Positions 6,923 through 37,624 of a stretch of 64,000 nt of DNA are shown here, piece by piece. Made by a program: the position numbers and the translations under genes. Location of the stretch: the NCBI GenBank assembly GCA_903821365.1, contig CAIJKY010000011.1:62001-126000 (forward strand). The letters are read 5' to 3'. This DNA comes from an uncultured bacterium (lineage in GTDB: Bacteria > Patescibacteriota > Saccharimonadia > Saccharimonadales > Saccharimonadaceae). Position 1 is the first letter of the stretch, and each line of letters begins with the position of its first letter. The notes below the pieces were generated by a model that was given only the letters and a program-made list of their open reading frames with translations, did not search any database and was not told the origin of the DNA.

Positions 6923-7327
6923 TTAGTTTGCAGCCGACGTGGCTTTAAGTTGATTCAGTTGGCTGCGCACTGTGGTGTCAAGCTTGCGACCGTTAAAGCT
7001 AAGCTGGATACCACCGAGAAGTGAAGGATCGATTGCTTGCTCAAGCGTTACGTGCTTTGCGCCGCTCTGCTGACTTACTAGCTCTTTGAGAGCGGCAACC
7101 ACTTTCGTGTCTAAGTCATGAGCGCTGATAACTGTTGCTGTCGCTTGACCATGCATACTGAGCGCAGTTGTGATGTCTGCAAGGTAGGCGTCGAGTTGCT
7201 TTGTCTGCTTTGTTTCGATCAAATATGCAGCGAATGAACGAACAAGTGCATGTGTCGATGCCGGCTGACGTATCAACTGCTCGACCACAGCACGGACAAC
7301 GAGCCGACGACTCAGACGCTGTGCCAT
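6923..7327 (-). CDS. atpH: ATP synthase F1 subunit delta
   Basis: A 134-residue stator subunit linking the b stalk to the alpha subunits. It is shorter than the usual ~175 residues because the N-terminal helical domain is reduced, but the C-terminal region keeps the typical end (IDPSLLGGIQLSFNGRKLDTTVRSQLNQL). I start at ATG 7327, four bases after the atpF stop, with AAGGAA upstream. A TTG start 11 codons earlier would overlap atpF. Position between b and alpha supports the identity. Confidence 0.92.
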   Translation of the reverse strand: MAQRLSRRLVVRAVVEQLIRQPASTHALVRSFAAYLIETKQTKQLDAYLADITTALSMHGQATATVISAHDLDTKVVAALKELVSQQSGAKHVTLEQAIDPSLLGGIQLSFNGRKLDTTVRSQLNQLKATSAAN

Positions 7328-34026: not shown

Positions 34027-34105
34027 GGCCGTCTCCTTACACGTGCGGTGATTTTGACTTTATTATTATAACATAAATAATAATACATGTAAATACTATC
34101 TTCAT

Positions 34106-34129
34106 GGTAACTATCCCCTCAAGACACGC
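34106..34129 (+). repeat. Left terminal inverted repeat of the transposon
   Basis: Twenty-four bases starting GGTAACTATCCCCTCAAG are exactly repeated in reverse at 37586-37609; similarity stops directly after. Confidence 0.96.
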
Positions 34130-34149
34130 AGCCCTTTTATCGCACCTCT

Positions 34150-34515
34150 TTAACTAATACGCGACTGTATAAGCTGACGTAAGCGCTCGGGGCGGTCAAC
34201 GCCTTTAAACGTAATCTTCTGTGTGTCGTTGCCAGTAAGAATTGTAATGTTACCGTAGCCTTTGGCTTTACCGACTGGGCCAATCTCAAGGTCAATGTTA
34301 TTAATGCGGTTGAATGGTATATGTTGGTTGCGCTTTACGAATACACCAGTGGTGAACGTCACACCGGTGCTATCAACTGTCAGTGCGGTAGTTTTATAGA
34401 TAATAATGACAAGAATTAAGTACGGTATGCCGATAATTAACATTGACCATAGAATGCCAGCTATAAGCATCATTTTAAAGTAGCTTTTATTGATCCTGAA
34501 TGTTTCGCTTTGCAT
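34150..34515 (-). CDS. bPH2-type PH-domain membrane protein
   Basis: A 121-residue protein. Two adjacent membrane segments (MMLIAGILWSMLIIGIPYLILVIII) are followed by a bacterial PH domain (TALTVDSTGVTFTTGVFVKRNQHIPFNRINNIDLEIG...YGNITILTG). This arrangement is the YdbT/DUF304 type, usually of unknown function and often a membrane-side adaptor. It is the leftmost passenger gene of the transposon, 21 bases inside the left repeat, and reads out toward the end. The RNA element at 34553 lies just upstream on the same strand. Confidence 0.85.
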   Translation of the reverse strand: MQSETFRINKSYFKMMLIAGILWSMLIIGIPYLILVIIIYKTTALTVDSTGVTFTTGVFVKRNQHIPFNRINNIDLEIGPVGKAKGYGNITILTGNDTQKITFKGVDRPERLRQLIQSRIS

Positions 34516-34552
34516 GCGCGACTCCGTATTAGCGGCCGCCTAAAATTAAAAG

Positions 34553-34675
34553 GACAGCCATTGATTGGCTGTCTACACCCACAACGAGCGTTACCCGTAG
34601 TGTTTACAATGGCTGCCCATTTAAACAGGTAACGACACGCATGTTGGTGCGTGCTAATTGTGGATGTAGACTCTA
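34553..34675 (-). ncRNA. Structured RNA carried by the transposon
   Basis: On the minus strand CTACATCCACAA pairs with TTGTGGGTGTAG (closing helix, plus 34573-34584 and 34658-34669). Inside are a hairpin CACGCA/TGCGTG and a longer arm: CGTTACC/GGTAACG topped by TGTTTA/TAAACA and ATGG/CCAT. Together they make a three-way junction. The hairpin GACAGCCA/TGGCTGTC (34553-34573) followed by CTTTTAATTTT ends it like a terminator. One closing pair is G.U on the minus strand but C.A on the plus, favouring a minus-strand RNA. CATAAT lies just upstream near 34686. I cannot assign a family. Confidence 0.6.
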
Positions 34676-34732
34676 CTATTATGTCATAGCTATAGCCTAA
34701 TGCTACAATGAATGGAATAACTTTTGAAAATT

Positions 34733-35638
34733 ATGAGTAATAGAAAAAAACCAGGCAGCAGGGGACCTAAATTAAATAATGCAAAGCAGCAATTAGACGC
34801 TGGCGCTATTCCAAGCGAGAAGCGTGCAAAATCTTTTAAAAATTTTCAAGCTGTTGCAGAGTATGCAAAAAGTTTAGTTTATTTTTTGATTAGGCTAAGG
34901 CCTCAAGACAATGGAGTGCAGTATCTCAACTTGGGAACTGCCTTTTTAGCAGGTAAAAACCGCGTGCTTACGTGTGCACATTGCATTAATGCTAGGGAGC
35001 CTCATGGCGACCCGATTCAATACCATCAAGCAGGTGACAGCTACCTATTTGTGCAGCGAGATGAGTTTGGTAACTGGCACAGATATAGTCAAGCGTTGAC
35101 ACTTGATGAAAGTTTATTTCTTTATCCTGAAATAGACACCGCAGTTTTATATATAAATGATGATTTCTATCATTCAAATGGCGAATACTATCGCATGCCT
35201 GGTATGTATTTAGAGCTTGATAGAAACATTGCAAGTATAGGCACAGATATTGGAATTCTTGGTTATCCGTTTGCGGAGATTAGCTTCGATCTAAGTGGCA
35301 TTCCCGATCTAGAGGCGGTTGTTATTAGAGGCGATAAAGGTGTTGTTAACACGCGGCGCGTGTTTCCTGATGTGATACGCTACGAAACAACTACATCCTT
35401 TAACCCAGGAAACAGTGGTGGCCCAATATTCAACATACGCACAGGTGCTATAATCGGTATTGTATCTGGGTATAATCCACTGCCAATGCATTGGATGAAG
35501 GACACTGTTCAACAAGGCGAGTTAAACCATCAGACAGACACAGATTATTACCACAGGTTACGCTGCATCTATTCTTATGGCGTGTCTTCTGAATCAATAT
35601 TGCCTATTGCAGATCAGCATGCTCTAGGCAGATTCTAA
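34733..35638 (+). CDS. Trypsin-like serine protease, transposon passenger
   Basis: A 301-residue S1-type protease with a full triad: His83 (LTCAHC), Asp135 (EIDTAVL) and Ser228 (NPGNSGGPIF). The N-terminal 45 residues are basic and polar (RKKPGSRGPKLNNAKQ). No signal peptide or clear membrane helix is seen, so it is probably cytoplasmic, unlike DegP-type enzymes. No PDZ domain is present. ATG 34733 is used; a TTG three codons earlier is possible. Base composition is AT-rich. Cytoplasmic trypsin-like proteases of this kind are common effectors in bacterial conflict systems. Confidence 0.88.
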   Translation: MSNRKKPGSRGPKLNNAKQQLDAGAIPSEKRAKSFKNFQAVAEYAKSLVYFLIRLRPQDNGVQYLNLGTAFLAGKNRVLTCAHCINAREPHGDPIQYHQAGDSYLFVQRDEFGNWHRYSQALTLDESLFLYPEIDTAVLYINDDFYHSNGEYYRMPGMYLELDRNIASIGTDIGILGYPFAEISFDLSGIPDLEAVVIRGDKGVVNTRRVFPDVIRYETTTSFNPGNSGGPIFNIRTGAIIGIVSGYNPLPMHWMKDTVQQGELNHQTDTDYYHRLRCIYSYGVSSESILPIADQHALGRF

Positions 35639-35639
35639 A

Positions 35640-35744
35640 TTATCCTTTTTTTACTTCGTAAATTACTGTTCCTTTAGGCTTTTCCAAAGCTTTTTTGATA
35701 ACTTTAATATCGGTATTTGTTTTTTGAGGCTTATTGGTAGGCAT
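35640..35744 (-). CDS. Possible 34-residue basic small protein
   Basis: An ATG at 35744 opens 34 codons ending TAA at 35640: MPTNKPQKTNTDIKV, then IKKALEKPKGTVIYEVKKG. It is Lys-rich and has a plausible fold (helix then strand). It fills most of the gap between the protease and transposase genes in the transposon and converges on the protease gene. No clear ribosome-binding site is present. I rate it as possible rather than shown. Confidence 0.35.
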   Translation of the reverse strand: MPTNKPQKTNTDIKVIKKALEKPKGTVIYEVKKG

Positions 35745-35844
35745 AGTACCATAAATAGTTTCCATGCCTCTATGTTATCAAAAAAATGCATTTAAATATA
35801 GTGTTCGATTCAAACTTATGTCTCTTTGTCAAATCTTTATAAAG

Positions 35845-36723
35845 CTAGTGCTTGTTAGGTGCTCTTTGGCACTGCATTACTGCGCTACGCCACAGCAGTG
35901 GGTAAAGCTGCTGCCCGCGATTGTTATATCGCCAAGCAAACTCATCAACGTACAACTGCAAATGCTGTTTTGAGACCGACCGATACGTGCCATCAAGCGA
36001 CGGCTTCAATATTCCCCAAAATCCCTCTAGCGTATTCGTATAAATGCTGTCGCGCACGTAGTCACCTTTGCTATGGTTGACGGTGGTGTGCGAGAAGTCT
36101 TGCTTTGCTCTGAAGTAGATACGGCTTTCGTCGGTAATGAGCGTAACGTTTTTAGCGATTGCACCACGCAGAAATGGCAACGCCGTTGTGGCGCTCGCAC
36201 TGTCGGTTACTAGCACGCGAACGCGACCATTGCGCTGCACGACACCAAGTAGCGGTGTCTTGTTACTGAAGCGGTTACTGCTGCGCCGTCGACCGCCGAT
36301 GTATGCTTCGTCGGCTTCGACAACACCGCGCAGTTTACGCGGATCTTGTTTCATGGTTGAGCGAATCTGTTTGCACATGCGCCACGCCGTCTTGTACGTA
36401 ACGCCAATATGTCGCTGCAGCTCAAGTGCCGACACACCATTGCGACTTGTCGAAAATAAGTAAATGGCGAAGAACCAGCTTGTTAGTGGTGTCGTTGTTT
36501 TGTGGTAAATTGTGCCAGCGGTCGGGTAAATCTGGTGACGGCAATGAACGCATGCAAAAGAACGCCTGTTTTTAACGCGATAGAAACGTGCGCCAACAAC
36601 ACCACACTTTGCACAGTGCGGCACAGCAGCGCGATACTCGTCAAATAGCGCGTTTAAACAAGCGTCTTCATTTGGATATGCAGCGATGAACTGCGCCATA
36701 GTGAAGCGTGCTTTTGTGACCAT
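35845..36723 (-). CDS. IS1595-family transposase
   Basis: A 292-residue DDE transposase. The N-terminal zinc ribbon has Cys37, Cys40, Cys58 and Cys61 (CAKC and CVHC). A helix-turn-helix region (GVSALELQRHIGVTYKTAWRMCKQI) follows. The catalytic residues are Asp138 (VEADEAYIGG), Asp198 (TLITDES) and Glu233 (NTLEGFWG), followed by the family end HLQLYVDEFAWRYNNR. All are intact, so it should be active. It lies in the middle of the element, on the minus strand. Confidence 0.95.
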   Translation of the reverse strand: MVTKARFTMAQFIAAYPNEDACLNALFDEYRAAVPHCAKCGVVGARFYRVKNRRSFACVHCRHQIYPTAGTIYHKTTTPLTSWFFAIYLFSTSRNGVSALELQRHIGVTYKTAWRMCKQIRSTMKQDPRKLRGVVEADEAYIGGRRRSSNRFSNKTPLLGVVQRNGRVRVLVTDSASATTALPFLRGAIAKNVTLITDESRIYFRAKQDFSHTTVNHSKGDYVRDSIYTNTLEGFWGILKPSLDGTYRSVSKQHLQLYVDEFAWRYNNRGQQLYPLLWRSAVMQCQRAPNKH

Positions 36724-36786
36724 AACATGAGTGTTGTTCTCCAGAGGTCATGTCAAAAGCATGTACGTATCGACGGATACTAAAAA

Positions 36787-36856
36787 AGTTCGTAGCTTAG
36801 ACGGCGTAGCGATGATAAACATCTTTGGCGAAACTACGCCATCTAAAATACGAACT
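36787..36856 (-). terminator. Long hairpin after the Ntn hydrolase gene
   Basis: AGTTCGTA, TTAGA and GGCGTAG pair with CTACGCC, TCTAA and TACGAACT, with small mismatches and an inner GATG/CATC. On the minus strand TTTTTTAG follows. It lies between 36933 and the transposase start and can end the Ntn transcript. Confidence 0.75.
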
Positions 36857-36932
36857 AATTTAAGTTTATCATCTGCTCGCCAAAGCAAAATAATAGTACT
36901 ATTCTATTGACTTATTTGCAAGCTTAAGCATT

Positions 36933-37532
36933 TTATTTTTTAGGAGGTCTTAAAACTTTTGTCTGCACAGAGCCACCCACTAAATCGGGAAAATCTATAA
37001 TAGATTGAGTGACGATATCTTGCACAGTCTGCCTGAGGTCACTTGTTCTAACGCCTGCATTAAATTTAGCCAACTTTAGTAATTCGCCAGCTTGCTTCAC
37101 GGGATCTTCGTAGCCAATAGCATGATATTCGTTACTCATTGGTGCTATGTTTAGCAGCTTTTGAGCGTCTATATGTAGTGAATAAAGTATTGGCTGTTGG
37201 TCATCGTAGCCAGCGACTAATAAACGCAACCGATCATCAGCTTCTAATTTAAGAGTATGCTGAGCTTCGCCGCCAAGTGCCTGGAATATGTGTTCGGCAC
37301 CGTAATTACCTAATCTCGCACGATAAGTAAAATTACGCAGAAATGAATCGACGGCACTGTAGTCAAAGACGCCCGACATAGCTATCAGAGAATGCTTATC
37401 AATTGGATAAATTTTCTCAGCATTAAAGCTTTTGCCTTCGTACTCGCCGGTCTCTAAATTACTTAAGATGGCCATGCTGTCACAAGCAACAATTATGTCT
37501 CTATCATTATGGGCTGCAAGCACGAGCGTCAT
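36933..37532 (-). CDS. Proteasome-like Ntn hydrolase, transposon passenger
   Basis: A 199-residue Ntn-fold protein. Removal of Met exposes Thr1 in TLVLAAHNDRDIIVACDSMA. Asp17 (CDS) and Lys33 fall at the positions of the proteasome beta-subunit catalytic residues; another candidate Lys lies in AEKIYPID, followed by IAMSGVFDY like the usual AxxG motif. It resembles stand-alone 20S/HslV-like subunits. ATG 37532 is chosen because Thr then follows Met; the 11 codons before it have no support. CATAAT ends nine bases before the ATG. It is the rightmost passenger gene. Confidence 0.8.
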   Translation of the reverse strand: MTLVLAAHNDRDIIVACDSMAILSNLETGEYEGKSFNAEKIYPIDKHSLIAMSGVFDYSAVDSFLRNFTYRARLGNYGAEHIFQALGGEAQHTLKLEADDRLRLLVAGYDDQQPILYSLHIDAQKLLNIAPMSNEYHAIGYEDPVKQAGELLKLAKFNAGVRTSDLRQTVQDIVTQSIIDFPDLVGGSVQTKVLRPPKK

Positions 37533-37585
37533 ATGATGTCTATTATGGTTGATTCTTAGTCGCATGTCACGATATCACGCGTGCA

Positions 37586-37609
37586 GCGTGTCTTGAGGGG
37601 ATAGTTACC
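37586..37609 (-). repeat. Right terminal inverted repeat of the transposon
   Basis: Exact reverse complement of 34106-34129, directly followed by the target repeat ATCTTCAT. Confidence 0.96.
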
Positions 37610-37624
37610 ATCTTCATTGCAACT

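Follow-up and report, generated by a model that had tools for sequence, protein, structure and literature searches.

A candidate attenuator leader RNA and its membrane-protein gene carried by an intact IS1595-family transposon of Saccharimonadales

What holds together the cargo of a complete transposon that carries two putative proteases, a PH-domain membrane protein and a structured RNA? Such an element is located at positions 34098-37617 of the 64,000-nucleotide stretch of DNA analysed here (the window), taken from contig C11 of a 1.03-Mb, 17-contig Saccharimonadales assembly (GCA_903821365.1, hereafter G000). A preliminary description of the window identified an IS1595-family transposon, proposed that its three cargo proteins form a mobile defence or addiction module, and gave the RNA no role. 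Our comparisons point instead to the RNA as the recurrent part of the cargo. The element is an intact IS1595 transposon with passengers, and the RNA and the membrane-protein gene behind it probably form one unit belonging to a new family of Saccharimonadales leaders, most simply read as transcription attenuators.

The transposon was delimited from its ends. The terminal inverted repeats (TIRs), 24 bp each, are located at 34106-34129 (plus strand) and 37586-37609 (minus strand); both read GGTAACTATCCCCTCAAGACACGC, with 24/24 identical positions. They are flanked by an 8-bp target-site duplication (TSD), ATCTTCAT, at 34098-34105 and 37610-37617 (8/8 identical). An intact DDE transposase of 292 residues is encoded at 35845-36723 on the minus strand and exceeds the curated cut-offs of PF12762 (1.3e-34), PF12760 (2.6e-7) and NF033547 (5.4e-58; 196 bits for a cut-off of 75). 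Thus, the perfect ends, the duplication and the intact transposase of the preliminary description were all confirmed. With the IS1595 family the element shares an ISXO2-like DDE domain accompanied by a zinc ribbon, TIRs starting with GG, an 8-bp TSD and the presence of passengers. Repeats of 8 bp have also been reported for ISApl4 (PMC12561309), and the family is described as comprising both insertion sequences and transposons carrying passenger genes (Siguier et al. 2009, as cited in PMC12561309), which applies here. The element differs in what it carries, since the combination of a protease, an Ntn (N-terminal nucleophile) hydrolase-like protein and a bPH protein with a leader RNA was seen nowhere else in this analysis. 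It is therefore classed here as an IS1595 transposon of the ordinary kind whose passengers are unusual. It is present as one copy in its own genome: no second copy of the end sequence was found in the assembly when up to 3 mismatches were allowed. A search for an empty site, with the element flanks as query (inexact in its first ~23 letters, which leaves the result unchanged), gave no match in 10 relatives.

The leader RNA is located at 34546-34671 on the minus strand, and is made up of a rod, an apical loop and a terminator. Its fold had a z score of -6.0 to -6.5 relative to dinucleotide shuffles. The -10 box of its promoter, CATAAT, is found at 34678-34683 (minus strand), which places the predicted transcription start at 34671. 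The intrinsic terminator hairpin (34553-34573, minus strand) consists of GACAGCC and GGCTGTC followed by a T-run, and is conserved in the family. Within the apical loop, the segment GGGCAGCCATTG (34607-34618, minus strand) can pair with the 3' arm of this terminator, a complementarity that is kept, through compensatory changes, in 46 of 46 relatives. The gene directly 3' of the RNA (34150-34515, minus strand) begins with an ATG 30 nt downstream of the RNA end and encodes a small membrane protein of 121 residues (bPH_2; PF03703, 1.5e-13). No Rfam 15 entry matched the window RNA (E up to 5) or eight of its relatives (E up to 1); mir-486 and MIR6224 matches, far under cut-off, were rejected as chance hairpins.

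The first relative of this RNA was a conserved fragment in another genome of the order, detected by a DNA search within the order. Of 295 order genomes, 12 then matched in pattern searches, including one by chance within a coding region, and 0 with the reversed-pattern control. In a collection of 84,980 species, 17 contigs matched; these are labelled as Saccharibacteria, termite-type 'Nomurabacteria' metagenome-assembled genomes (MAGs) and an unassigned MAG, with a single exception in Acidobacteriales. A covariance model built from 19 pattern-found members (alignment A2, MAFFT; R1) matched the window RNA with 86.9 bits and detected the family in 51 of 198 order genomes. Outside the order, only G387 (5.8e-7) and G446 (0.0099) matched in the phylum sample. 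The G387 copy (L245), from Patescibacteria outside the order, displays the full RNA architecture by eye, so the family is not exclusive to Saccharimonadales; this copy may result from horizontal transfer or from an older origin. Matches in G127 (L027, in a coding region), G240 (L161) and the Acidobacteriales contig (L188) were treated as chance, and those listed for a loose pattern in viral contigs were unspecific. We found no literature on such RNAs in Saccharibacteria or the candidate phyla radiation (CPR), most subscription papers being outside the search. In view of this and of the missing Rfam match, the RNA was classed as a new, apparently undescribed family of a known kind, the cis-acting attenuator leaders.

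Fifty-nine loci were analysed in detail, and two further alignments were fitted to the model: A3, with the model-found genome members, and A4, with 57 distinct sequences. In A2, 97.3% of the cells pair, and covariation was 0.318, compared with at most 0.073 when partners were slid. In A4 the corresponding values were 96.7% and 0.572, compared with at most 0.098, and two-sided changes were observed in 19 of 22 pairs; A3 behaved likewise. Without recourse to aligned pairs, 58 of the 59 members were seen to contain a -10-like hexamer whose start occupies either of two neighbouring positions, about 12-13 nt upstream of the first G of the rod; 18% of random windows contain one anywhere. This spacing would place the transcription start on the first rod base in 58/59 members, the window RNA included. 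At the other end, the intrinsic terminator ends at a U-run, and a start codon preceded by a Shine-Dalgarno (SD) sequence follows 13-60 nt 3' of the RNA in 55/59 loci. The covarying structure is thus located in a 5' leader, before an SD and an open reading frame (ORF). In A4 (columns 61-117), conserved letters also flank the apical loop, with AAAU before GGGCA and AAA..UAGG after it; these could form a ligand- or protein-binding site.

The arm beside the U-run, directly before the SD, has two mutually exclusive partners, which gives the RNA the layout of a transcription attenuator. The 12 nt preceding the U-run can pair with one of two partners, the GACAGCC-type 5' arm of the terminator and the GGGCAGCC-type apical loop, and the choice between them, set by some signal or by folding kinetics, would decide read-through into the envelope gene. 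Indeed, loop and terminator arm remain complementary despite sequence differences: at every one of the first 11 positions, 44-46 of the 46 members pair. Loop variants with matching changes in the arm include GGGCAGCC, GGGCAACC, GGGCGACU, GGGCAUCC, GGGCACCC, CGGCAACC and UGGCAGCC, and the exchanges are of the types G-C/C-G/U-A, A-U/G-C and G-C/A-U/C-G. On average 10.79 of the 11 positions pair, compared with 9.12 when arms were shuffled among distinct sequences (0/10000). Loop and terminator 5' arm are both complementary to the same 3' arm and covary with it. The loop-arm duplex had a median energy of -19.9 kcal/mol, and the local hairpin one of -12.4 kcal/mol. Closing the rod also competes with forming the full terminator stem, since the GAC that opens the terminator 5' arm pairs with rod bases 1-3 as well.

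The proteins encoded downstream of the RNA have a median length of 140 residues, and a transmembrane-like segment was detected in 48/58 of them, compared with 32% of control ORFs from the same loci. They are heterogeneous, including bPH_2, DUF4190-like (weak), pilin-like and secreted surface proteins, peptides of 51-61 residues, and a few soluble products, among them a nuclease-like protein and a serine recombinase. The 51-61-residue membrane peptides, which end in NHYWHA or NHYWHT (SPNHYWHT-like), lie behind the RNA in L203, L204, L205, L194 and L198 and belong to no Pfam family. The L194 copy comes from the single-cell genome TM7 HOT-352. At L286 the RNA (6942-7051) is located immediately upstream of the serine-recombinase gene, and given this locus the leader may also control enzymes of mobile elements.

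Five RNA copies, in five genomes, are located inside complete IS1595 elements with TIRs and an 8-bp TSD. In addition to the window element, these are L203 (TSD ACACCTTA; cargo, a SocA/Panacea antitoxin and a 183-residue gene product), L205 (ATACGAGT; a PemK/MazF toxin and small genes), L248 (TTAAGCCT) and L287 (TATATTGT; a retropepsin-like aspartyl protease and DUF5678). L213, from Ca. Microsaccharimonas sossegonensis, has both TIRs and no TSD, and in L198 and L193 a transposase adjoins the RNA. Altogether, IS1595 elements are involved at 8 of the roughly 58 loci, for 17 IS1595 transposase matches in 61 genomes; from these counts we estimate the probability of such proximity by chance at well below 1%, bearing in mind that the window copy was ascertained through its own transposon. 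As most copies are outside transposons, the RNA resembles a resident regulatory element that was captured with its gene.

Other IS1595 sequences were also noted. Two more transposases of the family, 38-40% identical to that of the window, are encoded on the same contig outside the window (C11:38091-38939 and C11:50476-51279). A saccharibacterial IS1595-type element at L007 (311-2794) carries a P63C-domain gene and a small membrane protein as passengers, and no leader RNA was found in it. A 17-base end sequence occurring once in viral contig L022 was attributed to chance, since this contig is of an unrelated phage and the sequence falls within a terminase-like gene.

With riboswitch-type attenuators the family shares a 5' leader position, mutually exclusive pairing of a terminator arm, a U-run, and an SD with a downstream ORF. 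It differs from them in having no Rfam entry, in using the apical loop as the alternative partner, with an alternative helix that also abuts the U-run, and in being almost restricted to Saccharimonadales with heterogeneous envelope targets. Several points weigh against the attenuator reading. The helix formed by loop and arm reaches the U-run and could itself terminate transcription, so that the switch may work in the opposite sense to a classical antiterminator. With the rod closed, this helix would have to form as a long-range pseudoknot, whose geometry is uncertain. The pattern used to find the founding members prescribed GGCAGCC, GACAGCC and GGCTGT, so the invariance of these letters in A2 is partly due to ascertainment; model-found members are free of the pattern, and A3 and A4 are themselves fitted to the model. 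About 10 of the 58 downstream genes do not clearly encode membrane proteins, and, with only ~8/58 loci at IS1595 elements, the RNA is not in itself a component of these transposons. Finally, all of the evidence comes from sequence.

The alternative that survives best is the mobile defence or addiction module, in which the protease, with the PH and Ntn proteins, would serve the transposon as an anti-phage or toxin-antitoxin unit. The two readings, module and leader RNA, do not conflict, and we regard the module as possible but rather unlikely. The trypsin-like protease (34733-35638, plus strand; 301 residues; Trypsin_2, 7.5e-12) was confirmed, as were the structured RNA and the PH-domain protein. 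A signal peptide is not evident by eye, and the His, Asp and Ser (GNSGGP) motifs are recognisable. All three are kept in its sole full-length relative, which is 30% identical and was found in the phylum sample (L183); there was none in 246 other order genomes. Like the anti-phage trypsin-like proteases (PMC12799240; RT-Protease and LmuA of PADLOC), the window protein has a Trypsin_2 domain and the GNSGGP motif, and its domain matched the PADLOC models for RT-Protease (1.6e-9) and LmuA (0.0015). Trypsin-nuclease pairs are, moreover, known from anti-phage systems (PMC12799240). However, these best matches are protease fusions, whereas the window protease is free-standing, with no fused sensor and no adjoining metallo-beta-lactamase (MBL) nuclease. 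Neither a nuclease nor an NTPase or other sensor partner is encoded in the element, and PADLOC returned domain-level matches and no complete system. A retron was also considered, from the co-occurrence of an RNA with a retron-like protease, and was rejected, there being no reverse transcriptase in the element, and the RNA being found elsewhere without this protease.

The second putative protease is a candidate proteasome-type Ntn hydrolase of 199 residues (36933-37532, minus strand), counted from a Met-Thr start. Its match to PF00227 (E=0.0021) reached 18.2 bits, below the Pfam cut-off of 22.4. With the start at the second ATG, at 37532, the T1/D17 spacing fits by eye. A transcript from a promoter-like site at 37570-37542 would begin only a few bases away from this ATG, which makes an N-terminal Thr nucleophile possible. 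Judged by eye, the protein may share Thr1, Asp17 and a Lys ahead of an IYPID-like strand with the 20S proteasome and HslV-type hydrolases; it differs from these in its sub-threshold score, its lack of relatives and the absence of an ATPase partner within the element. A single-sequence AlphaFold2 model was unusable (pLDDT, the predicted local distance difference test, 35). The Ntn assignment is weak. Between this gene and the transposase gene, a long hairpin (36780-36863; z = -5.3) followed by T6 on the minus strand probably ends transcription of the Ntn gene and would thereby shield the transposase.

No real relative of the Ntn gene was found in 150 family genomes or 286 phylum genomes, nor, in a scan limited to close relatives, in the 84,980-species collection; viral contigs and plasmids gave none either. 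One phylum match (L023, E=8e-4) was rejected as a prolyl-tRNA synthetase-like protein, another as a 68-residue stretch with internal stops. At L183 (G412, contig C16, 1216-4566), RE_ApaLI, an N6/N4 DNA methylase, DUF6602 and the protease relative form one run, possibly a restriction-linked protease defence locus of another CPR lineage. This ApaLI-type restriction-modification neighbourhood is a mild hint of defence, and no Ntn, PH or leader RNA was found near the protease there. The protease and Ntn genes co-occurred in none of the genomes searched (these comparisons across genomes did not include the bPH protein). Because the cargo genes were not found together elsewhere, the very observation that the preliminary description had set against its proposal, the three-protein module is not supported, and on these comparisons the protease cargo of the window element is a one-off. 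What can be retained is a general flavour of conflict or addiction in such elements, made plausible by PemK/MazF, SocA/Panacea and the aspartyl protease in sister elements and by the neighbours at L183.

Two alternatives concern the RNA itself. It might be a stand-alone small RNA acting in trans, its conserved loop (GGGCArCC-type) targeting other mRNAs, and its own promoter and terminator would suit this role. However, 55/59 loci have an SD and a start codon on the RNA strand no more than 60 nt further on, most of them belonging to membrane-protein genes, and changes in the loop are matched by changes in the terminator arm of the same RNA, which a trans target would not need. We therefore consider this improbable. 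Less probable still is a type I/III-like toxin-antitoxin system, with the RNA as antitoxin of the small membrane peptide behind it. Type III systems have the order promoter, RNA, terminator and toxin, which agrees with the gene order here, and several downstream products are the 51-61-residue membrane peptides inside transposons. However, the downstream families are unrelated (pilin-like, DUF4190-like, nuclease-like, recombinase), reach 495 residues, and the RNA has no repeats of the type III kind. Finally, that the TIRs and TSD are fortuitous or decayed remnants around chromosomal cargo found no support and can be dismissed in view of the 24/24 ends, the 8/8 duplication, the intact transposase and four further elements with TIRs, a TSD and the same RNA.

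Cultivated Saccharibacteria are surface-dwelling epibionts of other bacteria, and what controls their switching between cell states has been described as completely unknown (PMC11665869). A leader RNA found in roughly one in four genomes of the order and tied to small membrane or exported proteins would be a concrete, testable regulatory switch. Tentatively, it might represent a riboswitch class not yet described, or else sense host contact or another cellular signal, and so switch small envelope-protein genes in epibiotic Saccharibacteria, with IS1595 elements having repeatedly captured and spread such cassettes together with toxin-antitoxin or protease genes. The leader may also offer a native tool for inducible expression, a need named in PMC11665869, and IS1595 transposons would thus carry regulated cassettes in reduced genomes.

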